Assembly (NCBI GenBank): GCA_032622095.1
Contig: CP136069.1
Coordinates: 101,894,278-101,958,277, forward strand
Origin: Siphonodentalium dalli
Lineage: Eukaryota; Mollusca; Scaphopoda; Gadilida; Siphonodentaliidae
Direction: 5' to 3'
Length of the DNA: 64,000 bases
In this document: positions 1 to 59,940 of the stretch, in pieces
Numbering within the stretch: position 1 is the first letter of the stretch
Layout: every line of letters starts with the position of its first letter
Notes under the pieces: model-generated
What the model saw: only the letters and a program-made list of their open reading frames with translations
The model's database searches: none
What the model was told of the DNA's origin: nothing
Position numbers and translations under genes: made by a program

Positions 1-1221
1 GTTGTACACATTATTTATACAATACCATTGGCATGACAAGACCAGTAGAATAGGCTATTTCTAACAAAGCAAGTACTTTAGGCCAAAACAAAAATGATGC
101 GTGTTTCCCGTAACCCAACCGACAGTCTTCAAAACCCCCCGACCCAAGTTCATTTTATTGGTTTTAAATAAAAAAAATCAATCTATAAACCGACTGACCG
201 CACTGATAACCAAACTATGTACGCATGGTTCCATTTTATCTGATTCACCTCGCGAGATAAATAATATCTTTGATATATTTATATATTTTTCGCAAAACCA
301 CACCGTCACTCTATTAACGGAGTCAACTTTAATACGATCTGATGCAATACCGGAAGATCACGAGTTATCGTTCCTCTTCGCTGACCGGAAGCACGTGTTT
401 TTGTTGATATTTACATTAAACATGGAAGTTTTCCGCGGTTGATTCGAACAAGTTCATCTCAACGATGGTGGTCGCACATGGGTCGATTCGAAGTGTCTGG
501 GTGAAAATGGAGACGTGTTCTCTTTAATATTTACAAGCTGTATAACCACAGACTACAATCGATGCAATGAGGTTCCTCTTTCGGTGTCCGGTTCTGAGTT
601 ATATCGTCTGGTTTGATAGCACAAAATACACTGTTTTCGAATGTCGTTCTCTTTCTCAAGAATTGACAGTTACTGAATCCGATTTTTGGCACATCAATTA
701 GAATGGTTTTTCGTCACAAGAACACAACATTGATCGGATTGCCAGATCACAATTTTACTGGGTGCATACAAAATTCAGGATGTGTTGATAAAAATCTTAT
801 AAATGTTGTCTCACATTCAATTATGTGATTTTATCGCTCGTTTCATATATATAAAACCAGAAATATCATTTACATCTAAATATTAACTCAAATAATAGTT
901 ATCTAACTTATCTTCCCCATAAACATGCAAGATTTGCGATCGAAAACTAGGAAAGTTTGTGCTGATTGTTAGCAAGTGCAGGGCTTTGTATTTTTTTCGC
1001 ATGCATGTTAATCGCAATTTACAACAGATATAAAACACAAAATGAAGCCCATGGAAGACTTTGCATGAACAGGATGTTGTATTGTGGTATGGTAAGATAT
1101 ATATATTACATATAGAATACCTTTACTTTGTCCATAGTATGCACAATTTGAATTCCACATGCCATGCATGATTAACTAACTGATAAGCTACATACTATGA
1201 TATACATGTAGATAGCAACAC

Positions 1222-1568
1222 TACCGCTATACTTAAAGTAATTGACCACCAATAATGTGGTGTCACCCCGTTAATATGGCGGTACTATACCGCGGTATCC
1301 TCCAATACCGCGGTACTGATACCGCTTGTTAACGTGAACAAGTATGTGTGAGTAAATACCTCCCCTAAAAGAGTTCCATGAAAATCACCACGGTCTTCAA
1401 CAAAATTAATGCGGTGCCCGCTAAAAGACCACGGTATCATTATCGCTCAATACCGTAACTCCACGCCATGACTGTCTCGATACCGCTACCGTTTATTACC
1501 GGTATCACCGCGGTCATGACCGGGGTATCACCCCATTTTTCTGGTCAATTACTTTGAGAATAGCGGTA
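1222..1568 (+). mobile_element. 347-bp MITE, copy 1
   Basis: The element is bounded by inverted repeats of about 27 bp that start TACCGCTAT and end at TAATTGACCA. A second full-length copy lies at 5096-5442 in the opposite orientation. If the terminal TA is the target duplication, the element would be Tc1/mariner-like, but only two bases support this. The interior is filled with palindromic variants of TACCGCGGTA. There is no reading frame. Confidence 0.75.
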
Positions 1569-1675
1569 ACTAGTAATCAACAGAAAACCAACTTGCCACT
1601 TCAAATTTTCTTGTTACAAAACGTCCAACAGGACATCGAAAGTGGGCCTGTGATAACAACAAATTTCCATTCATG

Positions 1676-1817
1676 GGGTGTAAGGTCCATTCATGGGGTG
1701 TAAGGTCCACTCATGGGTGTTAGGTCCATTCATGGGGTGTTAGGTCCATCCATGGGGTGTAAGGTCCACTCATGCATGGGGTGTTAGGTCCATTCATGGG
1801 GTGTTAGGTCCACTCAT
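1676..1817. repeat. 20-bp minisatellite
   Basis: About seven tandem units follow the pattern GGTCCATTCATGGGGTGTTA, with small variants (ATTC/ACTC, TTA/TAA, one unit with a duplicated CATG). The array lies inside the Harbinger-like element. Confidence 0.85.
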
Positions 1818-1909
1818 GAATATTCCCAGCTCAAATTCTGCTTGGTTCAGGGGGTGTGAACTTCAGTTTGAAATAGGGGGTGCTGACATTTCCCAACAAA
1901 GACCCTGAA

Positions 1910-2065
1910 GCCAACTAATAAATTACTCATCTCTCCCCCGTGCCCCCTAAAATGTTAACTGTCAACTAATAAATTACTCATCTCTACACTGCGCCCCCTA
2001 CAACAACTCATCTCTCCCCGCGACCCTACAACATTAATTCATCTCTCCCCCGTGCCATGCGGACA
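1910..2065. repeat. Degenerate tandem repeat with CATCTCTCCCC cores
   Basis: Three to four imperfect units contain AATAAATTACTCATCTCT followed by a C-rich segment such as CCCCGTGCCCCCTA. Spacing varies between about 35 and 60 bp. Confidence 0.6.
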
Positions 2066-5000
2066 TGTAAACTGTCTATACTGTTAATATCTGTTTTATA
2101 TGTTTCCCCTCAATATATCAGTTTTATCACCAATTTGTCGGTTGTTATGGGTCATTGTGTGGTATCTGATGGTGGTTAGGCATGGCCCACACAAGACCAT
2201 AAAAAATAAAATAAAATGAAAAGCCTACCGCCCGCCCCTATTTTTTTTGGGCTTGTTACGGGAAACACGCATTCATTTTGTTTTGGCCTTAACCATCTGT
2301 GAGGGACCTTGATCATTTGATGACTATTCCCTGAAATTATACCCATTAGTTTGTGACAAGATTCCAGCACAGTTTCTGGACGCAAAGTCCCAAAAATAAG
2401 GTTTTAATCGAATTTATAAATCAGTATACTAAAATAAAAGCCTAAGAAAGCAGGCATTACCAAATAGCAGGCCAAACATTTCTCAAATAAACGCACTATT
2501 TAAACACAAAGCACTGGGCATATGTTGCCGGTTTCCTTTAAGTAACATACGGTACTCATCAGTTAAAGTTAAAGATATACATGTATATACAATTATCGAT
2601 GAGTGACTTGTCACCACCAATATCACCATTTTTTTTCTATACTTGTTGGAAAGACCAATGTTCAGCAACAAATAGTATGCCAGCCCGGAAGACGTGCACT
2701 TTTTTCAGAACACCGGTACCCTACGGCTACACACGATGCTTAGAAACAAAATGTTGACATCGATGGCGACGGATCACTCTGCATTAAATGTGAAAATGGT
2801 TTAAACTCCCGTTAATTTTAGAGCTGAAACGGTTAAGACGGTTAGCATCCGGTTAGCGACGTAACCGGTTAGAAAAAAATGAACCGGACGTAACCGCATC
2901 CCGTTGTCAGTTGAATGTGAACGTGAATAATCCTCAAAATATTAGGTTAAATGATGCAAAACTAATACTAAATCCTGTGTCACCGATAGTAGAGTGCAAT
3001 GCAAGCATTAATTGGTACACGCGGTAGTATCAGATACTTAGTAGCAATTCTCGAACTGTCTGGAAGTGTCGGTGACCTTCAATCAATTCCGACCCTTTGA
3101 AGTTTTCTCTGATCTTCCGACAAAAGCACGTGTGCAGCAACCCTGATTATTAGCGGTCGGCTATCGGCAAAGCCGACCGTTTTGCCGAGGAAACATTTAT
3201 TATCCTCGGCTAAAAAATAGCCGAGGACATTATCTGAAGAAATGATAAACAGACACTAGACAACGATAACTACCAGGTGTATTGTCACCACGAGCTGCCC
3301 AACCCCCAAGTTTATTAAGTCAAATGTGTTACCGTGCGGAAAACAATTGAGATTTCCAATTTCGGGAACGCAAACCGGAAAGAATTATGGTGCATATTGG
3401 CGATGTGTATGCTGGTTTAATATAATAGTATTTGAAGTTTTTATGGCTAGCATGTATATAGTTACTATAGTATCTATGGATAAATATTAAAGTATATACA
3501 TGTAGATAGATATAAAATTTATAATCCTGATTTAAACTTTGTTTTAGTTCTGTTTCCATCTTTGTGGTATTCCGTGTTTTATATACGCAGTAACCGTGAG
3601 ACCGCAAATCGAACAGACCTCAAACAATTCTGTCCATGCGTATTCTCTTAAATTCACCGATGTTACTGAATATATTTGGCGACAAAATTATCGGAGAGCA
3701 CCAGAGAGCACCATTTTATAGTGTGCAAATATATTTTTAATCGTGTATTTTGGCTTGATGGAAATAAAGCGTGATCCAACCGAAAAATGATTCAGTGATT
3801 TTAGAAATTGGAGACACTCAGGCCTGGAAATCTCAAGGCGGGCTGCCCGCCTACAGCCCGCCTAGAATTTTCCAAGGCGGGCTTTTTATAGCCCGCCTCG
3901 CCTACGATAGGACATTTATTATTTAGTTATTTTATTGTGTATAATGAGTAAAATACTGCATCGAAATCGTAATTATATTGTACAGTGTGGGGACTGTGGG
4001 CATGCGTGACCTGACGGTAAGGCCTAAAAAAAATTATACCGTGTTTCTGCTAACGGGACCTCTCCAGGGTAGGGTAGGTAGGTAGGGATTTTATTTTTTA
4101 TTTTTTTTAATTTTATTTTTTGTTCACACCCCGATCACAGGTTCCAAGCTGTATTTATGTTATTTGGACAACCCAGTGGTCATATACAGTCTTAAATTGT
4201 ATTCCTAAATAAAGGGAAGGAACATTTTGACAAACATTGAGAGTGGATATATAGATAATTGGATAATGTAATACAGGGTATAGAATGGATGGATAACATT
4301 CACAATGTCGAATAATTTTATTCAGTATTAAAATATATGTATTAAGACATTTACATATAAAAGGCCCCCATTACAAATTGGCTCAATTTTACAATTTGTA
4401 GGTTTCATACAGTGACAATTTCTGTATATAATCTTACAATTCAGCTATTTCTCAAATACATGTACACCCAAAATGCTTAGGCAGTTTCCGATCTTGTATC
4501 CTACATGGTAACAAGTCATACCCTGGATGGCAGCAGTGACTGTGCATTAGTTGTGGAGAGAATCTTCGCTTGTAAACAAAATATGATTAATTGGCCAATT
4601 GACATAATAGAACTAATTTATGTCAGGCCTTAACAACCATAATGTTTTGTGAGAATCAAAATGCAGCATTTCAACAGCGAATCGGCTTATTAAGAATCAT
4701 GATTCTCTTTCTAGTCATTTAATTGCCCCACCAAATTCCAAACAAAGAATACCGGTACATCGAAATGTGTTGGAAAGTTTTCAACTAGATTGGTCACTGT
4801 GAAAGCTGTATTTAAAAATTTTATTTTATTTTAGTCGATGATTGTTTCCCGATTAATCAACCATACCCAGTTAAAATTTAATATTGTCTAAAATAAAACT
4901 AATAGTACCGGTATCAAAATTATTTAAAAACTTGAGTTTCTCAGGCTTGTAAAATTCCAGCGTTATGTTAAAACTGACAAGATGTATTTTGTACTGTCTG

Positions 5001-5095
5001 TGGCATGCAAATCGGATGAACTCAGTATTGATCACAATACTGTAAAGATGCAACTGTATTGAGAGTACATCAATCATGACATGAATACATGTAGC

Positions 5096-5442
5096 TACCG
5101 CTATTCTCAAAGTAATTGACCAGAAAAACGGGGTGATACCCCGGTCATGACCGCGGTGATACCGGTAATAAACGGTAGCGGTTTCGAGACGGTCATGGCG
5201 TGGAGTTGCGGTATTGGGCGATAATGATACCGTGGTCTTTTAGCGGGCACCGCATTAATTTTGTTGAATACCGCGGTGATTTTCATGGAACTCTTTTAGG
5301 GGAGGTATTTACTCACACATACTTGTTCGCGTTAACAAGCGGTATCAGTACCGCGGTATTGGAGGATACTGCGGTATAGTACCGCCATATTAACGGGGTG
5401 ACACCACGTTATTGGTGGTCAATTACTTTAAGTATAGCGGTA
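5096..5442 (-). mobile_element. 347-bp MITE, copy 2
   Basis: Inverted copy of the element at 1222-1568 with the same length and the same TACCGCTAT termini. The two copies differ by scattered substitutions. The flank is TA on both sides. Confidence 0.75.
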
Positions 5443-6644
5443 TATTGTAGCTAAGGCGAAAACAAAACTTGCTTTTTTCCTATATTATGGAACCAAAAAT
5501 TCCAGGTAGACATGCAGGAAAGGATTTTTTTTTTAAACAAGCAATATGTCTAGCTCTTTAATGCTTAAATGTATCCTCAGATGTGGAGCCTGTATGTCTA
5601 CCGGTATGTATTATGTGGGAAAGAACTGAATCCAGCTCAATAAGGTGATTATAGTATACAATGTATGTCAATTTTAACAGGAAATTGACTCCCAGCTAGG
5701 TGCCGGAGTAATACAAAATTATAGCAGACATAGATATTAAAAAGTCTCCAAAAATCAGATTAAGAAGTCACCTTGCCACTGGAGTTCGCAAACACAAGAG
5801 GTACATGGTGATCTTAAAACAACTGTGTTAAATATTATGAGCCATGAATGCTGCTATGTGATATTCTATATTCTAATATAGTAGTAGTTAGTAGTAGTAA
5901 TTGTTATTGCCACGATGTGCATCTGAAGGCTTTTTATCAGCATTGATGACAACATCGAGATTCGGACCGAAATTAGACTCAATGGCATACTTGAAGCTAG
6001 TAATGTAAGAGTTGTGCTCTTTAGTTCTAATATATGTACATGTATGATCTTGATATAAGTGAGTATTTAGACCTGATATAAGCGAGTAGTTAGACCTGCC
6101 AAAAAAATTCCCACCCTCCCAAAAATGCTCAATGTTATGCATCCATACTTGTGTTACACCTTTTACTGGCTAACAATCACTCATATTTAACGGCAGAATG
6201 TTGAGAAATTCTATGAAACATTCACTTAGTTTAAACAATATTTTATTTGAACAAAATTAGAAACAATCACTTGTCATATACATATGTCCCAGCTCATTTA
6301 AGTTATATTAACCAACACCCCTTCACATATCAAAGTTAAAGGTCTGTATAGGCTCAAACCATGGACCAAAAGACATCGTTTTATGTTTGTTTAATGTTCC
6401 CTATTTTCGAGGTAGTCCGTAAATTCGCATTTTTGGAAGTTTGTTTCCAATTAACTCCGGTTTGATGGGTTTTGTGAACATGATTTTCATAGTTAATTAG
6501 GCTAATGACTCATTGAATTAAATTAATGACTGCAAGTAATAGAAAATAGAAGATAATTTTGCATATTTGGAAAGGCCAATGCAAAGAAATCACCGTGGTC
6601 CAGGAAAAAAATAAAATTACGTTCGGCAAAAAATTAGGGTCGGG

Positions 6645-7785
6645 CAGGGCTGGCGATCTAGAAAATCCAGGAGGGCTATTAATAGCCCTCCTAGATATGC
6701 CTAGGAGGGCTATAGCCCTCCTCAACTTTTAAAGTTATGATTTATTTTATCTGAGTTACTAATGCCGTTAGTTTGTCTATTTTTGATGTTGTATAACTCC
6801 ATCTAAATTATTTTTTTTTATGTGGAAACAAAGTGTCCACAGAGTTGTGAATGTCAAAATCCCCCACAGTAATTATGGTATGGTGAATATTTAACTATGT
6901 TTTATATGTTATGATAATTTATATGAACAAGAAACAAAATGTAAGAGTGTTTGTACTCAACAATTTGTCAGTCGGTGTCCAACCCATGCAACGGAATTGG
7001 GTGAGTTTGTCCACGTTAAAAGCATTCTCCATGAAAGTGTAATTTTACATAAAATACACAATCAAGAACAATATTAAATCCAGTATATTTGCACTTGAAT
7101 ATTGACTGCTTTCTCTCTCAATGTAATCCATATTCCATTGCCGATCGCAGACTGCTGCTAGTCAAGTCGCTATCTATAGATTTACTGGGTGTTTGCAATT
7201 GGGGACATAGAAAATAGTTTCTGAACTTTAATAATTGAATAACAGTGTAAACTAGAATACGTGGATATATTTAGCTAATTATATTAAAATATTGTCAATC
7301 GAAGCGATAAAAGACGGCTGCAAGCTAAATACAATTTTCACTGATAGGAACCGGAAACGGAACGAAAGGTTGAACTTAATTGGGACAGTGACATTTGGTT
7401 CTCACTATCCACAAACATGTGTTCATTTTATCCAGTGAAATATATTGTAAGCTCAATCTTATGAAGAGAAATAATTTATTTTGGTCATAAAATGTGTGAG
7501 AATCGATCAAAAGATCAGATTTACGAAACAGTTCGTTCCGGAATTTACTGATTCCGCTATAATTCCCATTTGACATTACCGTCAGGTCACGCATGCGCAC
7601 AGTCCCCACACTGTACAATATAATTACGATTTCGATGCAGTATTTTACTCATTAAACACAATAAAATAACTAAATAATAAATGTCCTATCGTTGACGAGG
7701 CGGGCTATAAAAAGCCCGCCTTGGAAAATTCTAGGCGGGCTGTAGGCGGGCAGCCCGCCAGCCCGCCTTGAGAATTCCAGGCCTG
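6645..7785. mobile_element. Short inverted copy of the level-3 element
   Basis: The left end (CAGGGCTGG with AGGAGGGCT hairpins) matches the right end of 3819-10894, and the right end (CAGGCCTGG with AGGCGGGCT hairpins) matches its left end. GTCGGG is duplicated at 6639-6644 and 7786-7791. The first 730 bp match 10166-10894 inverted, and 7378-7506 match 7846-7973 inverted. The last 220 bp match 3819-4020 inverted. This copy is uninterrupted and shows the empty site of the TTAA insertion at 7974. Confidence 0.8.
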
Positions 7786-7973
7786 GTCGGGGGTTTTGAA
7801 CATGGGTCGGTCGGGTTAGCAGAAACACGGATAATTTTTTGATTGATTCTCACACATTTTATGACCAAAATAAATTATTTCTCTTCATAAGATTGAGCTT
7901 ACAATATATTTCACTGGATAAAATGAACACATGTTTGTTGATAGTGAGAACGAAATGTCACTGTCCCAATTAA

Positions 7974-10161
7974 AGGAATACGGTCCTGAAAAAAACAATA
8001 TTATTTTCTTTCAATATACCGATAATATATATATATAAAATGTCCATTGGGCGCATATAATCTAATATTCGGCCGCCAATCATTATTTTTATAACGATTA
8101 AAAAAAATTCCGAAGTTAGCCGAAGATTTTGTTGTAGACGAAGTCACATGATCATCAGCCCGATCACGTGATTGTCACATGTAAACAGAAGCATAGCACA
8201 TGATCGATCACGTGGTAACTCATTGACAACGCATAGATGCGCGACGGCGGTATTTTAAGTTTGCATGTAGTCGATCGCGACCTTGGAAGATTGTCGTGTT
8301 ATCACACTGCGAATGCAAAACTTCGCCTTTCTCGTAATTAAATGTCTTTATCGTGTTATTATTACTATTATTATATGTATCGCGATGTGTTGTTACTATA
8401 AAGCCATGCCCGTATATTATTCAGTTTTGTGCGCATTTATCTATATAAACGCGTGCTCGTGTTTATATATATTTTTTCGTTACCGGAATAGTCCAAGTTA
8501 TATTATATATGCATATCAAGATTGCATATATACGCGAAGACTTGCACAGTTATTAGGCAATTATCATCTCGTAAACATTCCAATTTCCAGATGCCATTAG
8601 TCGTGTGTCAATAAAGAGCGTTTCGTTTTAATTTATCGTAACGCGGTAAAACAACACAAAATTGGTTTATTGCTGTCGGATTTAATCAATTATAATCAAG
8701 TCATTCATTACCAATATGATATGATAAGTTCATTTTTCCTTGGTTATGAATCATGTATATATTTGGGCAATATGGTGTTTATATATATTTCGGAATATTG
8801 CTTCCCCCACCCCAAAACAATCTTGCCGACTGTCACTGATGGAAATTCACTGCATCTATGCATGGTTATTGGCCTATAAAATTAGCACTCTAGCGATGCG
8901 GTCTATTGAATATCCAGGTCATAAATCGACCTCTATGTGTCCATTACGCATAACAATAGGGTTATAAAATATATAAATGTTCGCCGTGGTTCGTTTAAAC
9001 ATCCAATCATATATAACACTTTTTGAAGGAGGGATAATAATCCGGTTTAATATGGAATCACATATTCAAGTGCTCTTTATTCGCAATATATCGTAATAGT
9101 GAACGCTCTTTATTGCGTCAAGGTAAAGGGACTCGACTTAGAACAGTTGTTCTAGTGATTGTTTACTGATTTCAACAATACAGGCCAATACATGTACATG
9201 AACTTCCGATATGCATGCTTTATATATCCTTCCATCATTGTCATAGCAATTTCCACTTTATTAAACTCTTTTTATTCGTACCATATTAGGAAAACTCTTA
9301 ACATGGAACGCTCTTTATTGAGCCATGGTGAAGGAAATGGTTGTCATCGTGAATTATTCATCAACATACTCCCCACTTTAACTGCAATTGTATGTATTCG
9401 TAACCATGACTGACTCGTCAAATTAAACGCTCTTTATTTGGTATATGTAATCGGTTTCTGATTTTGCGCAACAGGTTTCCCACAGAAATCCCGCCAAATG
9501 TCACGTAAACGAACATCGTTTGGAAATGAATACAGCATATGCCTAACTGAGAGTCACTAGACCGGCCACGGCCGAAAACACTGCATTTATATGGCATTGT
9601 CACGAATGAATGATTGTAAATACGGGACACTCGGGGCATATATACGGAAAATTAAAACAACATTGCAAACACGCACCCGAATAAAGTTCACATGCCGGCT
9701 CGTGTTTTTATAAGCTTTATACGAAAGTGTTATCTACCCCGCTCAATTGTCCCTCTATATTTTTTGTCAAAACAATACCGTAACTTTCCAAACAGCACTT
9801 AAGGCAAATCACAGGTGAAGATAACTCACCGTGCGATGACAATTCACCATGTGTACACAATGCTATTGATATGCCCCGCAGTAATTCCATTACACTCACG
9901 CGCTGATGTCGATTCCGGATTTTCCATCGCCATATAGGTAGACATAATTAACTCCGACTCCAATTCCCTGTTTTTAATTAGTTTACCTCGCTTGACGTCA
10001 TGCGAGGTTTTGCGACGGAGATAGCCGACAACCAGTGGTGGTATTATTTATTTATTTCTCGGCTTATTTATTACGCGATTTTTATGGGACTTGGATCATT
10101 GTGATCACAATAGGGGTGGCTTTCCGATAGAGTTTTGTTGTTTCATGAGGATAGTAATCCT
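7974..10161. mobile_element. TTAA-flanked non-autonomous element
   Basis: TTAA lies at 7970-7973 and 10162-10165, and the related copy at 6645-7785 has a single TTAA at the corresponding place. The ends read AGGAATACGGTCCTG and, reverse-complemented, AGGATTACTATCCTC. A TTAA duplication is used by piggyBac and Kolobok, and the purine start fits Kolobok better. The interior has five copies of a CGCTCTTTATT motif and a GC-poor frame at 8283-8600 without recognisable domains. No transposase. Confidence 0.65.
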
Positions 10162-11590
10162 TTAAGGTCAACCTTTCGTTCCGATTCCGGTTCCTATCAG
10201 TGAAAATTGTATTTAGCTTGCAGCCGTCTTTTATCGCTTCGATTGACAATATTTTAATATAATTAGCTAAATGTATCCACGTATTCTAGTTTACACTGTT
10301 ATTCAGTTATTAAAGTTCAGAAACTATTTTCTATGTCCCCAATTGCAAACACCCAGTAAATCTCTAGATAGCGACTTGACCGCTGCAAGCAGCAGTCTGC
10401 GATCGGCAATGGAATATGGATTACTTTGAGAGAAACAGCAGTCAATATTCAAGTGCAAATATACTGGTGTTAATATTGTTCTTAATTGTGTATTTTATGT
10501 AAAATTACACTTTCATGGAGAATGCTTTTAACCTGGAGAAACTCACCCAATTCCGTTGCATGGGTTGGACACCGACTGACAAATTGTTGAGTACAAACAC
10601 TCTTACATTTTGTTTCTGGTTCATATAAATTATCATATTCATAACATATAAAACATAGTTAAATATTCACCATACCATAATTACTGTGGGGGATTTTGAC
10701 ATTCACAACTCTGTGGACACTTTGTTTCCACATGAAAGTTATACAACATCAAAAATAGACAAACTAACGGCAGTAGTAACTCAGATAAAATAAATCATTT
10801 TAAACTTTAAAAGTTGAGGAGGGCTATAGCCCTCCTAGGTATATCTAGGAGGGCTATTAATAGCCCTCCTGGATTTTCTAGATCGCCAGCCCTGGACACT
10901 CGGTAATCGGTCGGTGTCAAGCCCGTTAATTGTGCATAGATCATAGCTGTACTAAACTGTGAAACTACTGAAAGGGTGTGCCTTTGAGTGCAGAAAATCA
11001 AGAAATAGGTAACTGAGTATTTCAAAATGTGGAAACTTAACAGAAATATTCACTGAATCTATTCAATCATCATTCAATATCTCAATGAATGTTATTTGTT
11101 AATCATTTTATGTACATTTAGTTAGTTAAAAAAAAAAGCCTAAGACAATGCTGTTTTTGCCTTGGAGAAATATTTCTCCTAGGCATTTTTTTTGCCTAGG
11201 ACATTTTTTCCTAATTATCAGGGTTGGTGCAGTCACTGTGTATCAAGTCTGAATGCACACAAGGAAGTGACAACATAAAAGTGGCGTTGTGTGGCAATGC
11301 GTGCTTTCGTAACTTACTCTAGTGATCCGAATAACCGTACCCGTACGATTCTTATTCAAGCCCCTACGATTATTTAATTTTGATCACCCATACTCCATGA
11401 ATGATCGCATTATTCGTAGTTTTTAATCAAATGGCATGCATGAAACGGAATACGTTCAAAGAATTCACGCAACCGTCTGGCATCGCAATATAATCTATGA
11501 TTTGATCCATGGGAAGTAACTCCATCCTCGCACGTGTCGCTATTTTGCAATTCGTGCGACCCTATTGCAATAGACAGACCCCCCTCTGCG

Positions 11591-13295
11591 TAGAGCTGAA
11601 ACGGTTGACCCATTCTTCTAACCGGTTAACCATCGGGGTTAACCGGATTTCAACCGGTTATCCGCTAAATTTCTAACGGACTTCTCTCACACTAATTATG
11701 TCAACATTATGCCATGCTCCAGGGACAAACCTAGGTGAGAAGTAGTAGCTGAAATAAAGACATTATTCACGGCATTTAACGATATTCAAAAACACGCATT
11801 CACTGTTCTTTTGCTGGCTCTCGTGAGTCGTGATGGGGAATGAGCAAGTGAAATTTGTGAATGGCAGGGGAGATCGCTTATTTGCCGTGATCAGCATATG
11901 TTTGGGCATTTGTAAAACGAGTAAAATAGTATGGGTATTGGTAAAACGAGTAACAAAACTATATATTAAAGATCTGTAATATATCATTATCATCATTGGT
12001 ATATCCTCCAATGCATTATATATAAAGACAAGAAAGTAATAACTAGAGAACAAAAAGGAAGGTCAGTTAGGTCAGACTCGCAGTCCTATTCAGTATTCGA
12101 GCTATTCGTCGGTATCGTGATAGCGGACACTAGTGTTGGGAGGTTATATAATTTACGTTTCGGTTTCGGTTTTAGCAGTCCTTCCCATGAGGAAAACACA
12201 GCGAGAGCATTTATTTGCTCCTGTAATGCAGAAGACGGGTGTAATATGGCACCCATACTATAATTGAAAGTTGGGTTTTTGCTCAAACAAAAAGTCATTG
12301 TGGAATAGACCTACCGGTATGTAGAGTTACACCTTAATATGCCACAGTTGAACTGAGATGGTAAAGGTTCTAAATAAACCTTAAAATAATTCAATATTGA
12401 ACCAACAATTATAGTCTCCATTAGTATTTTGCAAAGAGGGACGGGTGCGAATTTCAGCACCCGTGAATTGAAAATTACGAGTGCATACGGGTGCGAGAGC
12501 AATCACTCCCGTCTCCTGGGAAGGACTGGTTTTAGTATGCAATCACTTAACATATAGCAATTACTGCCAAATTGAGTGTTAATTAGTCCCACAGGCACAA
12601 CCAGTTACAGAGTAGCATGGAGCATCAATTAAATTTCCTTGATAAAAGGGGAGATTATTGAAGAAGTTTTGGGTTGCTTCAACTACGATGTCTGTTTGGT
12701 CACTCAATTGAATTGATCATATTAAATCACAACAGGGAGGAAGAACGGGAAGAGTGAAGACATTGTGCAGCTGATCTCAATCTTCAAACTTTGTCGACTT
12801 ACATAGTTTTTATAAACCCCACTGTAAAACAGTTTTATATATAGTATGTCGTGGTGTGATTCCAATTTGAATCCATGTTGCTTCGTGCAGTATTAACTAT
12901 TAAGTTACGAAAGCACGCATTGCCACACAACGCCACTTTTACGTTGTCACTTCCTTGGGTACATTCAGACTTGATACACAGTGACTGCACACGTGCTTTT
13001 GTCGGAAGAAAACTTCAAAGGGTCGGAATTGATTGAAGGTCGCCGACACTTCCAGACAGTTCGAGAATTGCTACTAAGTATCTGATATTACCGCGTGTAC
13101 CAATTAATGCTTGCATTGCACTCTACTATCGGTGACACGGGATTTAGTATTAGTTTTGCATCATTTAACCTAATATTTTGAGGATTATTCACGTTCACAT
13201 TCAACTGACAACGGGATGCGGTTACGTCCGGTTCATTGTTTTCTAACCGGTTACGTCGCTAACCGGATGCTAACCGTCTAACCGCTTCAGCTCTA
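11591..13295. mobile_element. Short inverted hAT copy
   Basis: The termini TAGAGCTGAAACGG (left) and TAGAGCTGAAGCGG (reverse complement of the right) are flanked by an exact 8-bp duplication CCTCTGCG (11583-11590 and 13296-13303). The left arm matches about 13733-14692 inverted. The right arm (12900-13295) matches 2819-3137 plus 11227-11316 inverted. It is thus a roughly 1.35-kb member of the same family as 2819-14692, enlarged by the 353-bp insertion at 12176. Confidence 0.85.
12176..12528. mobile_element. 353-bp hAT-like MITE
   Basis: A perfect 12-bp inverted terminal repeat CAGTCCTTCCCA is flanked by GTTTTAG on both sides (8 bp, GGTTTTAG, if the last G is counted in the duplication). The matching arm at 14085-14105 has the uninterrupted site with a single copy. 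The 63-codon frame at 12311-12502 is not recognised. Confidence 0.8.
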
Positions 13296-14943
13296 CCTCT
13301 GCGGGTATTGTTTATCGTTCAGTGCGGCGAACAAAGGTGACAACGCGTTATGTCTGTGTTTTTTTTTACAATTGACGCGTTATTAACTAAGAAGTTAATC
13401 AACGTCTGGGGCTCACGTTTGAAAGTTTCTTTAATTAGAACACAATTGAGTAGTTGGTGGACCGATTCCGACCAAAGAAAATTCGTATAAAAGTGTTGAC
13501 GCAGTGTTCTCCGTTCAAATCAATGACATTGAAAAGGTTCTGCAAGAACCAGACATTGTCCGTGCTGGGTCGAGGAGTGTTTATTATAAGTTTTTGTTTG
13601 ATAATTAAATCAGTGTTCTTCAATGATCTCCTTTTTCATTGACATTTCCACCCCCTACTATTATTCCGACCCCTACTATTATTAAAATTTGGCAAATTTT
13701 CCACCCCCTACTATTATTCGGATCACTAGAGTAAGTTAATACTGCACGAAGCAACATGGATTCAAATTGAAATCACACCACGACATACGAAAACTGTTTT
13801 ACAGTGGGGTTTATAAAAACTATGCAAGTCGACAAAGTTTGATGATTGAGATCAGCTGCACAATGTCTTCACTCTTCCCGTTCTTCCTCCCTGTTATGAT
13901 CTAATATGATCAATTCAATTGAGTGATCAAACAGACATCGTAGTTGAAGCAACCCAAAACTTCTTCAATGATCTTCCCTTTTATCAAGGAAATTGATGCT
14001 CCATGCTACTCTGTAACTGGTTGTGCCTGTGGGACTAATTGACACTCAATTTGGCAGTAATTTCTATATGTTAAGTGATTGCATACTAAAACCGAAACAG
14101 AGGTTTTTTTTACCCAAAAAAAAACAAAACCAAAACGTAAATTCTATAACCTTCCAACACTAGTGTCCGCAATCATGATACCGACGAATAGCTCGAATAC
14201 TGAATAGGACTGCGAGTCTGACCTAACTGACCTTCCTCTTTGTTCTATAGTTATTACTTTCTTGTCTTGATATATAATTCATTGGAGGATATACCAATGA
14301 TAATGATAGATTACAGATCTTTAATATATAGTTTTGTTACTCGTTTACCAATACCCATACTAATATTACTCGTTTTACAAATGCCCAAACATATGCTGAT
14401 CACGGCAAATAAGCGATCCCTCCTGCCATTCACAAATTTCACTTGCTCATTCCCCATCACGAGAGCCAACAAAAGAACAGTGAATTCGTGTTTTTGAATA
14501 TCGTTAAATGCCGTGAATAAGGTCTTTTATTTCAGCTACTATTTCTCACCTAGGTTTGTCCCTGGAGCATGGCATAATGTTGACATAATTAGTGTGAGAG
14601 AAGTCCGCTAGAAATTAGCGGTTAACCGGTTGAAATCCGGTTAACCCCGATGGTTAACCGTTTAGAAGAATGGGTCAACCGTTTCAGCTCTAGTTAATTT
14701 GGCATCAGGAATGATTTTATCGCTGCAGAGTTGTAGACTAGATAAGAATTAAGTACCGGTATGTTATTTGTTATAGGTAACAGCCTAAACAGGCGACATA
14801 TGCACAGTGTTTTGTGTGTTTATTTGAGATATGTTTGTCCGGCTATTTGCCAATGCCTGCATTACTTAGGCATTTATATAAGTATACCAATTTCTAAATT
14901 CGATTAAAACCTTATTTTGGGGGATTTATGTCCAGTAACTGTG

Positions 14944-16150
14944 ATTACAGTGACATGAAGATGATTTAGAAATCATGAAATGGCGGTCAATCGTTGAAAA
15001 TAATATCAATATTATTATAAATTAATACACTGAATGGCATAAAAATGGGAAAACATTATACAAAACAACGGCAATCGAATAGAAACTCGAGATAAATTTT
15101 TAACCAATTCGTCTTTATAAATAACCAAATTCAAATCTGACAAAACAAGAAATTTTCGAAAAACGGAAATTTACTTATGAGCTTCGGCGTCAGATGAATT
15201 TTAATATTTATTCACAGAACCTTCGTTCCACGAGTTGGAAACAATACTCTCGTTCGATGTTACTGTTGTTCACGTTGAGTTTCGTTCATATTGTGCTACC
15301 AGTGTTGGTCTTTATTTTATGTTTATATCGAAAATAGAGAGAGCGGTGAAATCGTGCAATTAACACAAAACAATGGCGGACAGTCCACAATTATAGAACA
15401 CTTGTGCCATAATATACACTTCTCCTTGCAAGATGAAGCAAATTTGTATATAAAGTACCCCGAGTTAGCTGTTGGGGCGTGCTGTCGATAGTCCAGAAGC
15501 GCTGGATGGGTCTTAAGATCCATCACTGGGCTTGGATTATTCAGAACGCCATTGATATCGGTCATCAGCATTACAGGGCTTGGGGATCAATGCGAGGCTT
15601 TTATATGCCGCGACTAAAATCGTCCATTTTGATTGGTCGTTCAGTGTCACATGGGACCTAATAAAACTAAATTAAACAAAATTCTCACTGTGTATTATAT
15701 TTTATTGCAATTCCCCCTCAATAATAATCTTCTGGAGGTCATGATAGCTCGACAGAACCGCAAAAGAATGGGTTATGTGAGGCGAATACTCGCCAAAAGA
15801 CAAGTTTTCAAAGCGAACGAACAATTTCATCAGACATTCGGAATGAACGTCTGACATCGATTGGCGTCAGTCGTCACGTGACAAATAAAATTATCATGAG
15901 CTAAAAATATAACTGATTTTTTTTTTCTGAAATATAACATCAGTATCAGCTTCTTTAATTCGGGATAAATGTTGAACTAGCATTTTCGGTAACTAATTAT
16001 TTTTCGTTTTCCAGATGCATTTTCGAAACTAAATCAAAGGAAAAGCACGCGAATTTGGCTGCTACTGAATGTGACGAAGCTAAATCTTTAATTAACTATA
16101 TTGGATAGTGGATGAGGAACATATTCGAGGGGCGTTTATCACGCTCACGA
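14944..16150. other. No recognisable gene or element
   Basis: AT-rich DNA with short open frames only. A lysine/arginine-rich frame at 15735-15854 (plus strand) is followed by a splice-acceptor-like TTTCGTTTTCCAG before 16015. The frame matches nothing I recognise, and I would not call a gene. Confidence 0.4.
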
Positions 16151-16154
16151 GTCA

Positions 16155-16345
16155 TCCTATAAAGCCGGGCGCACACGTCGGAACATTGTTGTACAACATT
16201 GTTGTATGGGTCATACAACATTGTTGTAAGCGTCCGCACACGCTACAACAAAATGACACAACAAATGTTATACAACAATGTTGTGACTAGCCGCACACGG
16301 CGAATATTTGTTGTACAACAAGTCACGTGATAAAACGTCATCAAG
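16155..16345. repeat. ACAACATTGTTGT palindrome cluster
   Basis: At least four copies of the palindrome ACAACATTGTTGT or near variants lie between GC-richer phrases CGCACACG and CCGCACACGGCG. The outer CGCACACG phrases are partly inverted, which suggests a small hairpin MITE. No clear target duplication. Confidence 0.5.
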
Positions 16346-17185
16346 TCACGTGTTGGCTGCATACTAATTTCAGCTCTGGGTTTTTCCCACCAAGTTGATA
16401 GATGCGGAAAGCATGCACCAGGCTCGATTTTGTCACGAATCTCTACCCTGGGCCTGTTGCTACGTTATATATATATACACTGAACGGATTTGGACCAATT
16501 TAGTACTTTTTCATAGAATAGGTTATATGGAGTTATCATTATTAAACCTCCAGGTCATATATAATTTGGTTATTTTGTACCTCTTGTGTTATTGGGGAGG
16601 GGATATCAGGAGTTATTATTAGACCTCCTTTATTAAACTATATGGAGTGATGGGTGAGGGCATAATATACGCCAAACATGGACCTTGTTTTTTTTTTTTG
16701 GACAGAGTTACTCTTACAAGTGTTTATAAATAAATCTCATGACGTCCTTTCATTATTAATGGGAATTTTGGAAGGAGCGTGTAAGTCATGGACCTTGATT
16801 TCGAACCTTTGTTCATATTAACTTTTTTTTAAATCGGCGCAGGCTTTGACCAATGATACATGACCGAGCGGAACATGTTATTAGGTTCAAAATATGATGT
16901 CACGTGATTGTATTTACCAGCTGCTTGAGCGATAGCCAACTTCTGTGTTGAATATATTGTTATTTTCACTTCTATGTCTTGGTGAATTAACTTCCTATCC
17001 AAGGGAATGACACACCCACATCTTGAAAATTGTACAGGTCTCTGTGAATCAACAATAAGCGGGATCACTGAGTTGTGGCGATATTGGATTCATCCAGCTC
17101 TGACCGATGGTTGCAGAGATTCATCCAACTCCGGTTGTGTGGCTCTATAGGGCTCAGGTCAACGTTCTCGAGCAGCATTTCCATA

Positions 17186-17218
17186 TGTGGAAGTCATGAA
17201 TAATTCATGACTTCCACA
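17186..17218. other. Perfect 15-bp-arm hairpin
   Basis: TGTGGAAGTCATGAA, a 3-base spacer TAA, then the exact inverse. The flanks from 16350 to 17400 hold no gene I can support. Confidence 0.7.
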
Positions 17219-17414
17219 CAGAGAATACCACTACAGAACCCCCATTGTTGCGACGTGTGCGGTGGGCTTAATACACGCTGCGGGGAAATATTGAGTAAAC
17301 CCCGTTGCGGGCACGAGTGAAGACTATATGTGCAGGTAGGTTTGTTTTGAGAGAAATTTTTTCATTAATTGTTTTTCTTCGGACACAGTTCCAGGTTCCA
17401 GTTCCAGGTATCCA

Positions 17415-18665
17415 GACGATTGGGACCTTGGACGATTGGGACCTTGGACGATTGGGTCAAGACGATTGAGTCAAGACGATTGGGACCTTATTCAAGTTAA
17501 TATATGTTTATACGTTTATATTTCATTTATACGTTCCTATTAAATAATTAGTACACTGGGTTAGTGTTAGTAAGTTCCCTGTAAGTTGTTATTGCTAAAT
17601 GGGATCACCGCTGATTAGATGCACATCAGATGGTAACCTTTATGGATTATTTCAAGGCAACGTGGCTGGAGCCCAGAGGATTGGTGTGTTTTTGGGGACA
17701 CCTGTTTTTGGGCAATGATATTCCGAAGGCATATCCTACAGGCCTGAGCGGAGGAAGGTTTGGGAGGGGGGTGACTCCCTGCTGATGGTGGGGGTATGTT
17801 CTTCCCCCTGGAAATATTTTGAAAATCCATTGCATTGAGAGCTAATATAGGGCTCATTGAGTCAGTATTTTGAATTTTACTGAGAGGTCAATTTGATCAA
17901 GTTTTTCAATCATAACTTTGGGAATTTTTTATATATGTATGGATTGGAAATGCTTATAAGTTATTGTCACATATCTTTTGGTTCAATGGATGGATTATGC
18001 TTATCGTGCTTGAAATGAGACTTACCATTATTACTCTAATTCATATACTAGGCTATTTTCTAAAATTCAAGTGAGACACATACATAATATACTAGTACAG
18101 AACAATGTCCATTAAGTTAGTAATTAAGTACTATTAGTACTAATCTCTATGTTAATTTCTCATTTTGGTGTTATGAGATCCCACCTGATAACCAGGTTTA
18201 TTTGATCAAATTGTCACTGTTCCAGTACTGTTTTTGATTGAAATATTGAAGTCTGACGCCTGAATGATAACAAACCTGAATTAAAACTATTTGAAGTTTT
18301 CACAGATGAAAGCTAGATAAAAACAAAGCATACTTTTACAGTATGATTCCAACTGTTAAACTTAAATATTTTTGTAAACTTAAATGTCTTATGTCAATAT
18401 ATATAACTAATTTGCATCTTGTTATGATATGAATTCGGACCTAAATAGAAGAAAAAAACCGGTAAACGGTATGAAAAACGGCCTGGATATGTCCCTGACC
18501 GTACTTATAATTTCTTATATATAACTGAAGAAAGCAATTACTCAAGGTCCCAATCGTCCTGACTCAAGGTCCCAATCGTCCTGACTCAAGGTCCCAATAG
18601 TCCGAGGTCCCAATCGTCCAAGGTCCCAATCGCCGAGGTCCCAATCGTCCAAGGTCCCAATCGTC
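17415..18665. mobile_element. Foldback-like element with tandem-repeat arms
   Basis: The left arm (17415-17488) has about five units of GACGATTGGGACCTTG or the variant with GTCAA. The right arm (18544-18665) has about seven units of the inverse, CAAGGTCCCAATCGTC. About 1.05 kb of AT-rich DNA without a gene lies between them. Inverted arms built from short tandem units are typical of foldback elements such as Drosophila FB. No target duplication was visible. Confidence 0.55.
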
Positions 18666-18896
18666 AGACAATCAGTCCGGATCCACGAGGTGCTTGATGA
18701 ACCCGTCGTCCGCCAAATGTCAACAGTTCAACGACTATATTTAAGGTCCATTCTCATGTACATAATTAGTGCCAATGCATGATTACCTGTCGCACCCCAT
18801 ATTCAACGCAAAAGCAAACGTTTCCGTGTACAATTGTGTTCTTGTCTGACTGGGACTAACCAGTTGTGGCATATGGAACAATAATCATGCAATGCG
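18666..18896. other. Unassigned spacer before the gypsy element
   Basis: No reading frame, repeat or motif was recognised here. The last five bases before the LTR (18897-18901) are the ACAAT target copy. Confidence 0.4.
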
Positions 18897-18901
18897 ACAA
18901 T

Positions 18902-19059
18902 TATGATGTTGCTGGTGGTTTAATTGGTTAGCATTTAAATAGAATTGGTTGATCAAATTGAGAACACGTTTATTGCAAACCTGGACGCTGACATATTGGT
19001 TTACTTAATAATCCGGAATACCCGGTTCGCATGAAACGGAACATACTAAGAACATTACA
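18902..19059 (-). repeat. 3' LTR
   Basis: 158 bp, matching 23431-23588. In element orientation it starts TGTAATGTTC and ends CATCATA. The exact ends are set by the shared sequence and the flanking ACAAT. Confidence 0.9.
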
Positions 19060-19068
19060 TCCCTATCT
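19060..19068 (-). promoter_or_regulatory. Polypurine tract
   Basis: On the minus strand AGATAGGGA lies directly before the 3' LTR, the expected place for plus-strand priming. Confidence 0.65.
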
Positions 19069-19247
19069 ACCTTAAAGGATTTGAAAAAACATTTAAACAA
19101 AAACAAGATCTAAACTCTACTAGTGTGATTACTACTTAGTAGTGAAATGAAAACTTCTATGTGTAAAATGAAAAGCATTAACAGTTCGTATAACTCTAGT
19201 TGAAGCCCAAACAGTAACGATCACCATAACTACTCAAGACTAATATT

Positions 19248-22200
19248 TTAGTCACAGTCATAATCATCCAGATATGCTGGTGCCTTTCTGTTACGACTCG
19301 GTCTCCTGGCTTCTCCTGTGTCATTTAGCACAATACTGTTATCAACCTGATTGTCATTTCCATCAGCATCGTTGGCATCGTTTAATGACTGATCACTCGA
19401 GTCAACTGGTTCTTCACAATGTTCGTATGGTATGTATACACGTTTGAAGTGAGAACTGTTACGGGTTATTCTGTGAATGTTATTTTCAGCAGTTATCATG
19501 GATCCTTTTACAGCAATAACAAGATATGGTGTTGGATTGAATGGTGTATCAAGTTTGTTCTTACGGATTTGTTTCACAATAACAGTGTCACCAACACAAA
19601 TGTCACTATCTCTAGCATTCTTGTCGGCTCTTTCTTTCATCTTCTCCTTCGCCAATCTATCTCTCTGTTGTAACTGTTCATCGATTACAGGATTAAAAGT
19701 CTCTGGTAGTGTAGTTTTGATTGATCTACCCAACAGTAACTCGGATGGTGACTTATCAAGCGTGGAATGAGGGGTCGCTCGATAATTTCTCAGGAATGAG
19801 TACAGTCTCTGTTTCCAAGGCTGCTTCTCTGCGTTACTAGCAGTTATTGTTCGTTTGAGAGTACGCATGAACCTTTCGACTTCTCCATTTGCTTTCGGCC
19901 AATACGGGGTTACTTTCCGGTGTTTGAATCCCAGATGTTCAGCAAATGTTCTCATGTCATTAGAGTTGAATGGTGGTCCATTGTCGGTTTTCAAGATATT
20001 ACACACACCGAACAAAGAAAATATCTTGTCGAATACTGGAATCACAGTTTTGGCTGCGGTTGATCGTACAATTTCAACTATTGGAAATCGAGAATAGTCG
20101 TCAACGATGACTAGCAGGTACTCTCCAGTTGGTGTCGGTCCCCAGAAATCTGCGCTCAACGATTGCCACGGTCCATCAGGTAGCGGTGACATTTTCAACG
20201 GTTCAGCATTCGATATCGGGTTTGAAGCTTGGCAAGGAATGCATGATTTTACACGATTTTCCACCATCTTGTCAATGTTAGGGAACCAAACTTTCTCTCG
20301 AATCAGACGTTTCGTTTTTACTATACCCTGATGCCCTTGGTGCGCGAGTGAAATCACACGGTCTTGTAGTGACTCAGGGATCACAAGTCGATTATTTCGA
20401 AGGAGGAGACTTCCATTGCTGTCTGATGCAAGGTCACTTCGTACATTGTAGAAACTGCTGTACAATGAACTTTTACACAAACTGTTGTCCCAGTCATCGT
20501 GTTGTACGAATTTTATCACATTTTGGAGTGTCTCGTCATTCTTTACAGCTTCGCGAATTTCATCGATTGTCATCGCTTTTGGTACGGCATGTAAAGTCAG
20601 AAAGTTAATGTATTCTTCTGCTACTTTGGTAGCACGAGTGTCACTTTGCGGTGTGTCGGCACTCATCGGATGACGTGACAGATAGTCAACTGGGTTATCT
20701 TTGCCTGGTGAAAATTTTAATGTCATTTCATATGGTTGTAGACGTAGTGTCCATCGTTCCAACCTCGCAGATGGTTTAGAATTTGGATTTCCAAAGATTC
20801 CGAGTAGCGGTTTGTGATCTGTGATTATGGTGAATGGCTTTCCATAAACGTAAAGGTGAAAATGTTCGCATGACCAAATAACTCCAAGACCTTCGCGTTC
20901 AGTTTGGGAATAGCGCTGCTCTACTGGTGTTAGCGATCGACTGGCGTATGAGACGATACGGGATTCATCAGTCTTGGTGTCTTTCTGTGTTAGCATCGCA
21001 GCAATTCCAACAGGGCTGGCGTCGACAACAATGGTGGTTTCTTTTGAGGTGTCAAAATATGTCATGACTGGTGATGATGACAGTGCACTTCTGAGTTTCG
21101 CCATCGCAGTGTCATGTTTCTGTCTCCAATCGTACTTCACATTTTTCCTTGTTAGCTCACGGAGTGGGTGTGTGATAGTTGCATAGTCTTTTATGAACCG
21201 CGACGTGTAATTCACCATTCCTAAAAAACTCCGTACTTCGCCAACAGATTTTGGTGTCGCGACGTTTACAATCGCATCAATTTTTCTCGGGTCTGGTTCC
21301 ATCCCTGCTGAGCTGAACACAAATCCATAAAACTCAAGTCGAGATTTTTGGAATCGGCACTTTTCGCGATTTAAGGTTAAGCCGCGTTCACTCAGACGTT
21401 CCATGACTGCACGGAGATTCAAATCATGTTGTTTTTTGGTCTCCGCATATATCAGGATATCATCGCTAAGATTCATTACACCATGAAGACCACTCAGTGT
21501 TTCGCGGATAACGTTTTGAAATATTTCACTGGCCATGTTGACCCCGAACATTAATCTCTTGTAGCGTCGTAGTCCAATATGTGTCGAAAATGTTGTAATG
21601 TGTCGTGAATCAGGTGATAGCTCTAACTGATTGTACGCCTGGACCAGATCCAATTTCGAAAACACGGTTGCGCCATTGATATCGTGGATTATATCATCGA
21701 CTGTCGGCATAATGTGTCTTTCTCGTTGTATTGCTTGGTTAGCTGCGCGCATATCTATGCAAAGTCGCACTTGACCTGGTGTCGATTTTGGAACGATCAC
21801 ACAAGGTGAAACCCATGGAGTTGGACCTTCAATAGTCTCTATTATCCCCATTTTCTCATCACTCTCCAGTTGTTCTTCAACTTGCTTCCTCATATGAAAG
21901 GGAATTCTGCGGTGTGGTTGTGCTACTGGTTGAATGCTTTCATCAATGTGTAGTTTCACTTGGTAATCTTTCAGCTTACCAATTCCATTGAAAAGATGTT
22001 CATATTCATTTAGCAACAAGTCGATGTTATCGGTGGTCTCAGTTGATACAGAGTTGATGTGAGGTGCAAATTTTATTAGTTCAAGCTTTACTGCAGTTTC
22101 ACAAGACAGAAGCGAACCAAACTTTCCTGGAACTACATAAACTGTGTCTGAAACTTCTCTATCACCCACTTTTATTTCAGCTGAGAATTTTCCAAGAGTC

Positions 22201-23369: not shown

Positions 23370-23411
23370 ATTTGGTCAGGACGGTATATGTGGGCTCTAT
23401 CGGGTATCGAT

Positions 23412-23429
23412 AGTTATCCTCGGTCGCCA
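23412..23429 (-). promoter_or_regulatory. tRNA primer-binding site
   Basis: On the minus strand TGGCGACCGAGGATAACT follows the 5' LTR after one base. TGG complements the CCA end of a tRNA. The tRNA species is not assigned. Confidence 0.75.
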
Positions 23430-23430
23430 A

Positions 23431-23588
23431 TATGATGTTGCTGGTGGTTTAATTGGTTAGCATTTAAATAGAATTGGTTGATCAAATTGAGAACACGTTT
23501 ATTGCAAACCTGGACGCTGACATATTGGTTTACTTAATAATCCGGAATACCCGGTTCGCATGAAACGGAACATACTAAGAACATTACA
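23431..23588 (-). repeat. 5' LTR
   Basis: 158 bp, with no difference from 18902-19059 found by eye. It should hold the element's promoter. No TATA box was assigned with confidence. Confidence 0.9.
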
Positions 23589-23705
23589 ACAATCATCTTC
23601 ACACCACGTGGTTGTGCATACTCAAAATCGAGACAAAACGGCCAGTCGCAAGCTAATGTGGCGCCGTTCTTCTATTTATTACCTATTTAGTTATATCACT
23701 AATTT

Positions 23706-23909
23706 TGTTTTGCCGTGGATGAAAAGAATGTTTTGCCGTGAGTGAAAAGTTTATTCTGCCGTGAGTGAAAAGTTTATTCTGCCGTGATTGAAAAGTTTGT
23801 TTTGCCGTGAGTGAAAAGTTTATTCTGCCGTGATTGAAAAGTTTGTTTTACCGTGAGTAAAAAGTTCACGGCAAAACAAACTTTTGAAAAGTTTGTTTCG
23901 CCGTGGCAC
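23706..23909. repeat. 23-bp minisatellite
   Basis: About eight units of TTTTGCCGTGAGTGAAAAG plus a short linker. One unit near 23866-23885 is partly inverted (TTCACGGCAAAACAAAC), so the array contains a small hairpin. Confidence 0.85.
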
Positions 23910-23929
23910 TTACGGGTCACCGTATAAAT

Positions 23930-24640
23930 GACTTCAATTTCTGTAAGATACTCCAAACATTTGACAAACTTCTCTTCTGTGGTGTAGTCTGTATTGGTGA
24001 CCCGAGACAGCATCTCAGTTTCTGGTGGTAAATTTAGAGACGACAGCTGGACCGACATCTTGTTGCTGGTCTTCAAAAGACTCTGGATTTAGACCATATT
24101 GTCTAATCTGAGCAATAAAATGCTCAGGGAATGATGTTTGAAACATATTTGTTGTTGGCATCGATCTGGAATTTATATGATCCAAAACTCCATTTAGCCA
24201 CAACTGTTTGGGTGTTTGTTGATGTTCAGTTGATAATTTGTGTGAATTACAGGCTTCCTTGAAGGATTTCAAATTTTGATTAATAACTGGCAAATAAACT
24301 GTTTGTAGTGCATATTTATGAACATCATTGTCATGGTCTAAGATACTAAGATATCTCTCCGCAGCGAATGAGTTATGTGGGTTCGATGCTGCTGTATTCT
24401 GTTTTACTATTTTGTCCGCCAATGATGACAGCGTGGATTCTATCCCGTTGTAGTTCGTATCTTCCATTAGATCGCGAATGGTCACTATAATGACCGCTTT
24501 GCCTGTCTCAGATCCAATAAAATTCGATTGTTATTCGCATCCTCATACTCTAGACACATCTGACCATTTAAAATAGTCTGCCTCACGCGTGCTAAAATGT
24601 CTTGTTTTCTGGTATCATCCGCCATATTTGAGTGGAATAG
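23930..24640 (-). pseudogene. Integrase-core transposase remnant
   Basis: Reading leftward, a 46-codon frame starts at 24632 (MADDTRKQ) and stops near 24492. A second frame from about 24525 to 24015 includes KYALQTVYLPVINQNLKSF and HKLSTEHQQTPKQLWLNGVL. These resemble the C-terminal end of the integrase-core (rve-like) transposases common in fish and invertebrate genomes. The frame then shifts, and SLNLPPETEMLSR continues to about 23930. The DDE core is absent, so the product cannot catalyse transposition. The family call rests on remembered similarity and is moderate. Confidence 0.45.
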
Positions 24641-24659
24641 GAGAAATCATTAAGTTGTT

Positions 24660-25120
24660 CTAAAATTAACTCATTTTGTGTTATCACTAATTCGAATTAT
24701 TGATATCACAAAATGTTGGTAATTTGTGATATCACAAAATGAATATGTGATATCACACAATAGTAAGCATTTAGTGATATCAATAATTCGATTTTATGAT
24801 ATCACAAAATGTTACATAAATAGTAGAATGGCGCGGCAAGCTATGCCATTTCCTATTTATTGATATCACAAAATGAATTAGTGATATCACATATTCAATT
24901 TTATGATATCACAAAATGAATATGTGATATCACAAAATAGAAATATTCGATTTTATGATATCATAAAATCAATTTGTGATATCAAGAATTCGAATTTGTG
25001 ATATCTTAAAATATTTAGTGATATCACAAAATAATTTGTGATATCACAAAATAATTAGTGATATCACATAATCGAATTAGTGATATCATAAAATGAATTA
25101 GTGATATCACTAAATAGGTA
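24660..25120. repeat. GTGATATCACAAAATGAATT satellite
   Basis: More than fifteen copies of the palindrome GTGATATCAC or near variants occur, mostly joined by AAAATGAATT or AAAATAATTA. Spacing is near 20-25 bp, with a non-repeat break at 24810-24850. This is not CRISPR, because the spacers are themselves repeated and short. Confidence 0.85.

Positions 25121-59907: not shown

Positions 59908-59940
<33 letters not shown>

Follow-up and report, generated by a model that had tools for sequence, protein, structure and literature searches.

How was a deep nest of transposons put together, and how much of its order of assembly can be read from the DNA itself? The question is raised by a stack of about 12.6 kb (positions 2368-14943) within a 64,000-nucleotide window of the genome of the scaphopod mollusc Siphonodentalium dalli (contig CP136069.1, C9:101894278-101958277; the assembly comprises 2.23 Gb in nine contigs). 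The stack consists of an old outermost element that took in nine others, amounting to ten separate insertions, and of one passenger. We consider it very probable that these ten insertions assembled it from cut-and-paste DNA transposons. The stack provides a clean worked example of nesting in which empty sites allow most of the layers to be verified, and the families that it contains would help to annotate the genome.

Architecture of the stack

Window positions 1801-15300 were re-read, after which the junctions were printed and the inverted repeats listed. Inverted-repeat pairs in the stack reach 273 nt at 99%, far above chance, and the outermost pair extends over 2368-2449/14862-14943 (84%) and 2447-2496/14814-14863 (86%). 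All eight target duplications listed in a first-pass annotation of this DNA were found where it had placed them. These perfect duplications measure 8, 6, 6, 6, 4, 2, 8 and 7 bp. With their ends fixed by copies elsewhere, the naive probability of their arising by chance is 4^-47, to which TTAA and TA contribute little, being the fixed targets of their families. The elements nest cleanly (Table 1), each contained in its host and flanked by its own target duplication; the exceptions are the element at 4021-7840, duplicated on one side, and the outermost duplication, which has one mismatch. The clean nesting and the up to six levels that the annotation claimed for the left path are borne out, yet its list, correct in its eight duplications, lacked both the 343-bp element at 5098-5440 and the PIF/Harbinger-like element at 4021-7840, and the latter is needed to reach six. 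A seventh, outer level was sought by BLAST of positions 1-2367 against 14944-30000, which gave no match. No stop-to-stop frame of at least 130 amino acids (aa) lies within the stack.

Table 1. Elements of the nested stack, in window coordinates. TIR, terminal inverted repeat.
Element	Level	Span	Strand	Ends	Target duplication	Own pieces and remarks
Outermost element	1	2368-14943	+	CACAGTT..AACTGTG	ATTCCAG/ATTACAG, 2361-2367/14944-14950, 6/7 match	2368-2810, 14701-14943
A-outer	2	2819-14692	-	TIR TAGAGCTGAAACGGTT	GTTAATTT (8 bp), 2811-2818/14693-14700	2819-3137, 11227-11316, 13732-14692
GTGCAG element	3, left	3138-11226	+	TIR CAACCCTGATTATTAG	GTGCAG, 3132-3137/11227-11232	3138-3818, 10895-11226
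B-outer	4, left	3819-10894	-	CAGGCCTGG..CAGCCCTG	GACACT (6 bp), 3813-3818/10895-10900	
PIF/Harbinger-like element	5, left	4021-7840	+	TIR GGCCTAAAAAAAATTATACCGTGTTTCTGC	TAA, 4018-4020	right tip missing
343-bp element	6, sibling of B-inner	5098-5440	+		TA, 5096-5097/5441-5442	
B-inner	6, left, deepest	6645-7785	+		GTCGGG (6 bp), 6639-6644/7786-7791	1141 bp; family of B-outer, inverted
TTAA element	5, sibling	7974-10161	+	AGGAATACGG..TAGTAATCCT	TTAA, 7970-7973/10162-10165	inserted in B-outer
TA element	3, right	11317-13731	+	TIR CTCTAGTGATCCGAATAA	TA, 11315-11316/13732-13733	11317-11590, 13296-13731
A-inner	4, right	11591-13295	+		CCTCTGCG (8 bp), 11583-11590/13296-13303	family of A-outer, inverted; carries GTTTTAG insert
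GTTTTAG element	passenger in A-inner	12176-12528	+	CAGTCCTTCCC..GGGAAGGACTG	GTTTTAG, 12169-12175/12529-12535	353 bp

The boundaries in Table 1 were compared with copies of each family elsewhere in the genome. Each genome search yielded between 383 and 3740 loose first-look candidates, of which at most 40 were scored, and copy counts are hence samples and not whole-genome totals. Duplications of the A family were called by a script that tolerated a displacement of either end by as many as 2 bases, and those of the PIF/Harbinger-like, GTGCAG and GTTTTAG families were judged by eye. As a check, the annotation had proposed looking for other copies with identical termini, and the sampled copies do share the stated boundaries. 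Among 30 A loci (the window included), 26 have both ends, the other four (L050, L052, L058 and L060) showing only one end in the stretch fetched; the 8-bp duplication is perfect in 25 of these 26 and has one mismatch in the remaining locus. B copies show perfect 6-bp duplications in 8/8 cases (the window included) and in a further 4/4, and TTAA flanks both sides of nine of the ten TTAA-family copies fetched with both ends, the tenth having ATAA at its left. The ends of the GTGCAG family are identical in 6/6 fetched copies. For the TA family, three of five fetched copies have the exact ends, flanked left and right by TA; a fourth is likewise flanked by TA but differs slightly at its ends, and the fifth has a changed left end. 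The outermost family is, to judge from its sequence, old: of 40 scored places, those outside the window have leading matches of 69-84%. Nine of its copies were inspected, of which four have both ends alike, among them L010 with an exact 7-bp duplication and L022 with one matching at 6/7; L016 has changed ends, and the guessed coordinates of four copies missed an end. As a separate observation, two unequally diverged A copies adjoin head to head (inverted) at L109:553-2218, and a B copy lies some 2 kb from them.

The PIF/Harbinger-like element was found by a genome search with positions 4026-6644. Its copies start with GGCCTAAAAAAAATTATACC, and 3-bp duplications flank all ten that were fetched (TTA/TAA in eight, TCA in one and TGG in one). 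Against a B copy elsewhere (L004), the right junction in the stack has lost the element's terminal bases, the second TAA and roughly 67 bp of host B, most simply and most likely through a deletion that followed the insertion. The 343-bp insert is absent from seven copies of its host, in which the match to query positions 1-1072 abuts that from 1416 onward. In a search for the element itself, all 39 scored places besides the window match query positions 1-339. Another copy of the PIF/Harbinger-like element (L087) carries it at a different point. A further copy, inverted and 97% identical, lies just outside the stack at window 1226-1564. In five of 40 scored places (L137-L141) the 343-bp element is found inside its own kind, inverted, with outer flanks common to all five; this self-nested composite goes back to a single old event and was copied as a unit.

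Empty sites and the order of insertion

The first-pass annotation held that several insertions have their empty sites preserved in a related copy within the stack. This proved correct: A-inner runs without interruption through the sites of the GTGCAG and TA elements, and B-inner through those of the TTAA and PIF/Harbinger-like elements. Copies elsewhere supply uninterrupted hosts. The site of B-outer is intact in 6/6 copies of the GTGCAG family, with a 7-base overlap that equals the duplication plus one base; that of A-inner is intact in 5/5 TA-family copies, with an 8-base overlap; and that of B-inner is intact in 10/10 PIF/Harbinger-like copies. For A-outer, L011 reads AAACTCCCGTTAATTTGGCG, with a single copy of the duplication. 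The GTGCAG and TA sites are uninterrupted in the 8/8 best relatives of A-outer, found with its right part, a query that does not span the sites, and in 29/29 other A loci found with A-inner, which does span them. The PIF/Harbinger-like and TTAA sites are likewise uninterrupted in 7/7 other B copies (the TTAA site in L002-L008), again with a query spanning the sites; queries of this kind, from A-inner and from B, favour uninterrupted copies.

The innermost element of the right path, GTTTTAG, gives the impression of being the latest arrival there but has a different history. Of the 29 other A loci fetched, eight (L040, L044, L046, L052, L054, L057, L063 and L066) carry the GTTTTAG insert at the identical site. 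A search with the insert itself scored 40 places, of which one is the window and eight adjoin A matches; from the other 31, 19 were fetched and 12 left. Three of these 19 further loci (L110, L112 and L117) again hold it at the identical site in A, 15 of the 16 others show a 6-bp duplication, and A and GTTTTAG matches also abut at C8:153993921-153995042. Since the same insert lies at the same A site elsewhere, GTTTTAG predates the insertion of A-inner and travelled in with it: it is a passenger, present in an ancestor of A before A-inner came here, and the right path records four events and a passenger, not five events. The nesting and the empty sites claimed by the annotation are borne out, but a direct reading of the order is not supported for every event, GTTTTAG being the exception. 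A-outer lacks the insert, but the 40 places found with A-outer as query (the nearest at 98%, then 97%) and the 40 found with A-inner have, by eye, none in common outside the stack, and A-outer seems, from these matches, to belong to another A subgroup, which makes its empty GTTTTAG site uninformative on order within the stack. The case illustrates a trap, in that containment alone over-counts local events if an element arrives already carrying another.

Might further levels besides GTTTTAG have come as ready-made composites, leaving fewer than ten local events? Composites do move in this genome, as both A with GTTTTAG and the self-nested 343-bp element demonstrate. We nevertheless regard this as improbable, given that the near copies of B-outer's, A-inner's and B-inner's hosts, and of A-outer at its GTGCAG and TA sites, are all without insert, that the PIF/Harbinger-like and TTAA elements are missing from all seven B copies (in the search that favours such copies), and that B sequence flanks none of ten PIF/Harbinger-like copies, within samples of at most 40 scored places.

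The ten separate insertions very probably proceeded as follows. An old level-1 element with long inverted ends received an A element (A-outer), which in turn received the GTGCAG element and, separately, the TA element. Into the GTGCAG element went a B element (B-outer), and into B-outer both the PIF/Harbinger-like and the TTAA elements; into the PIF/Harbinger-like element went a second B copy and the 343-bp TA element, and into the TA element a second A copy already carrying GTTTTAG. A later deletion most likely took away the right tip of the PIF/Harbinger-like element together with one of its two duplication copies and some 67 bp of host B. The elements were presumably moved by transposases supplied in trans.

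Divergence, counter-evidence and depth

If nesting records time, outer copies should be the more diverged of each same-family pair, and they are, in agreement with the inferred order. Differences from the majority of relatives number 36/1323 in A-outer vs 8/1344 in A-inner, and 29/1070 in B-outer vs 4/1141 in B-inner (GTGCAG element, 16/998; TA element, 7/702); the reference set of 25 A rows used for these counts included one wrongly oriented row (L067, 51.68%), which was dropped for the comparison of derived sites, leaving 24. Derived sites confined to the outer copy, confined to the inner copy and common to both number 33, 7 and 1 among 1312 positions for A, and 29, 3 and 0 among 1064 for B. 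With 1/1312 and 0/1064 derived sites in common, neither gene conversion between the inverted arms nor a local origin of the inner copies is supported.

A local hop or an inverted duplication would have made the inner A and B copies from the outer ones, and both pairs do consist of copies of one family, inverted, within 13 kb of each other, with the single derived site common to both A copies occurring in none of the 24 others compared. We judge this very unlikely. The outer and inner copies differ at about 40/1312 (A) and 32/1064 (B) positions, against the much smaller distances of the inner copies from their relatives' majority given above; GTTTTAG is present in A-inner and absent from A-outer; the lists of 40 places found from these two copies do not, by eye, overlap outside the stack; and the inner copies own separate duplications. 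Still less credible is an assembly artefact. The stretch is highly repetitive, which would favour such an artefact, but misjoins would not leave paired target duplications around elements with termini independently established from other copies, and the window lies inside a 215-Mb contig.

Several observations weigh against ten orderly insertions. The PIF/Harbinger-like element is duplicated on one side only. Duplication length varies in the GTGCAG family (6 bp in three of six copies, 5 bp in two and 7 bp in one), and GTTTTAG is flanked by 6-bp duplications elsewhere and by 7 bp here in A. The outermost duplication is mismatched here, and beyond L010 and L022 none is visible in the nine copies inspected, for four of which the guessed coordinates missed an end. 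The difference between outer and inner copies is inflated in both pairs, because similarity to the inner copies guided the choice of relatives. Finally, the GTGCAG element is less diverged (16/998) than the B-outer that it contains (29/1070), contrary to the expected order. This reversal speaks against a strict clock, but relatives of the GTGCAG element were chosen by similarity to the copy in the window and those of B by similarity to B-inner, and such an uneven choice could cause it; we give it little weight, though it may be genuine.

The depth of the stack seems to call for no special explanation. When nine insertions of about the observed lengths were placed uniformly into the outer element, a depth of at least six was reached in 19.6% of 20,000 simulated runs, and depth six as a sign of something special was rejected on this count. 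Uniform 1300-bp insertions over the whole genome gave from about 62 to 4168 six-deep stretches per genome for assumed transposon fractions of 0.4 to 0.8, an estimate that for the two lowest fractions derives from a single hit per 300 runs. Such depth is not very surprising, and the stack looks like an ordinary, unusually legible nested cluster.

A broader idea may be entertained as a long shot: that nested small transposons in this genome frequently remain mobile and give rise to new composite lineages, with same-family nests persisting mainly in inverted orientation, since recombination would be apt to remove those in direct repeat. The same-family nests seen here, two in the window and an amplified one elsewhere, are all inverted, and amount to three events only. 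At G000 C1:65770392-65775096, TTAA-family pieces lie in direct tandem, one of them internally duplicated, which shows that neighbours of one family are not always inverted.

Outside the stack, the window holds a 1375-aa stop-to-stop frame at 19248-23375 (minus strand) that by eye resembles a Gypsy-type polyprotein, and several open frames at 39575-45034 (minus strand) that by eye resemble a retroelement encoding reverse transcriptase and a protein similar to tyrosine recombinases. It also contains a 323-bp unit in two tandem copies (95%) at 59587-60242 and a repeated 139-bp unit at 58130-58391.

Comparison with known elements and nested clusters

The superfamily names used here are provisional and follow from duplication length and ends. 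Non-autonomous elements of the hAT, Tc1/mariner and piggyBac/Kolobok groups make 8-bp, TA and TTAA duplications, respectively, and the A, TA and TTAA elements resemble them in this respect. From its 8-bp duplication, found in 25 of the 26 A loci with both ends, we take A to be hAT-like. The TA duplications of the TA and 343-bp elements lead us to assume that both are mariner-like, a weak test because it involves two bases only, and the TTAA element, with its target on both sides of nine of ten copies, is presumably piggyBac or Kolobok, the two not being told apart. By duplication length, B makes 6 bp (12/12), the GTGCAG family 5-7 bp and GTTTTAG 6 bp (15/16, with 7 in A); the portions consulted of the literature on 6-bp duplications and of superfamily lists do not settle the class of B. 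Strong single-strand hairpins are predicted by end folding just inside the left ends of the GTGCAG element (3138-3238, z -5.6) and of A (11591-11690, z -5.1) and just inside both ends of B (6645-6735, z -5.6; 7685-7785, z -7.4), the palindrome motif differing between the two B ends. Folding is weaker at the right ends of GTGCAG (-2.6) and A (-2.4) and in GTTTTAG (-2.4 and -1.8), and close to the chance level at the ends of the TTAA element and of the outermost element.

In the passages of PMC2213677 drawn on here, PIF/Harbinger elements and Tourist-type miniature inverted-repeat transposable elements (MITEs) have 3-bp TTA/TAA duplications and terminal repeats beginning GG (GGGCC in one). The 4021-7840 family is similar in its GGCC-ended termini and in its TTA/TAA duplications, found in eight of ten copies, and differs in the TCA and TGG duplications of the other two.

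Nested clusters, their ordering, and a guest at one site in many hosts are already known from the parts of the literature cited here, and among the papers that searches on nested or composite MITEs and on nesting depth brought up, no title or abstract opening describes a case such as this one. According to the passages of PMC2672092 available to us, nesting is known across eukaryotes, and REANNOTATE resolves nested transposable-element clusters and takes their temporal order from containment, as is done for this stack. Those passages mainly concern long terminal repeat (LTR) elements of cereals and human repeats, whereas the elements here are apparently small DNA transposons, and, unlike the REANNOTATE clusters, the stack contains same-family inverted pairs that serve as internal empty-site controls. 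The closest likeness to the passenger comes from rice, where, in the portion of PMC3903597 consulted, Mutator-like elements carry the MITE Os0548 at one site in 107 copies (40 intact and 67 partial). The rice case involves other families and hosts that contain transposase sequence, in contrast to a stack with no long open frame, but in both Os0548 within its Mutator-like hosts and GTTTTAG within A, host and guest have been amplified together.

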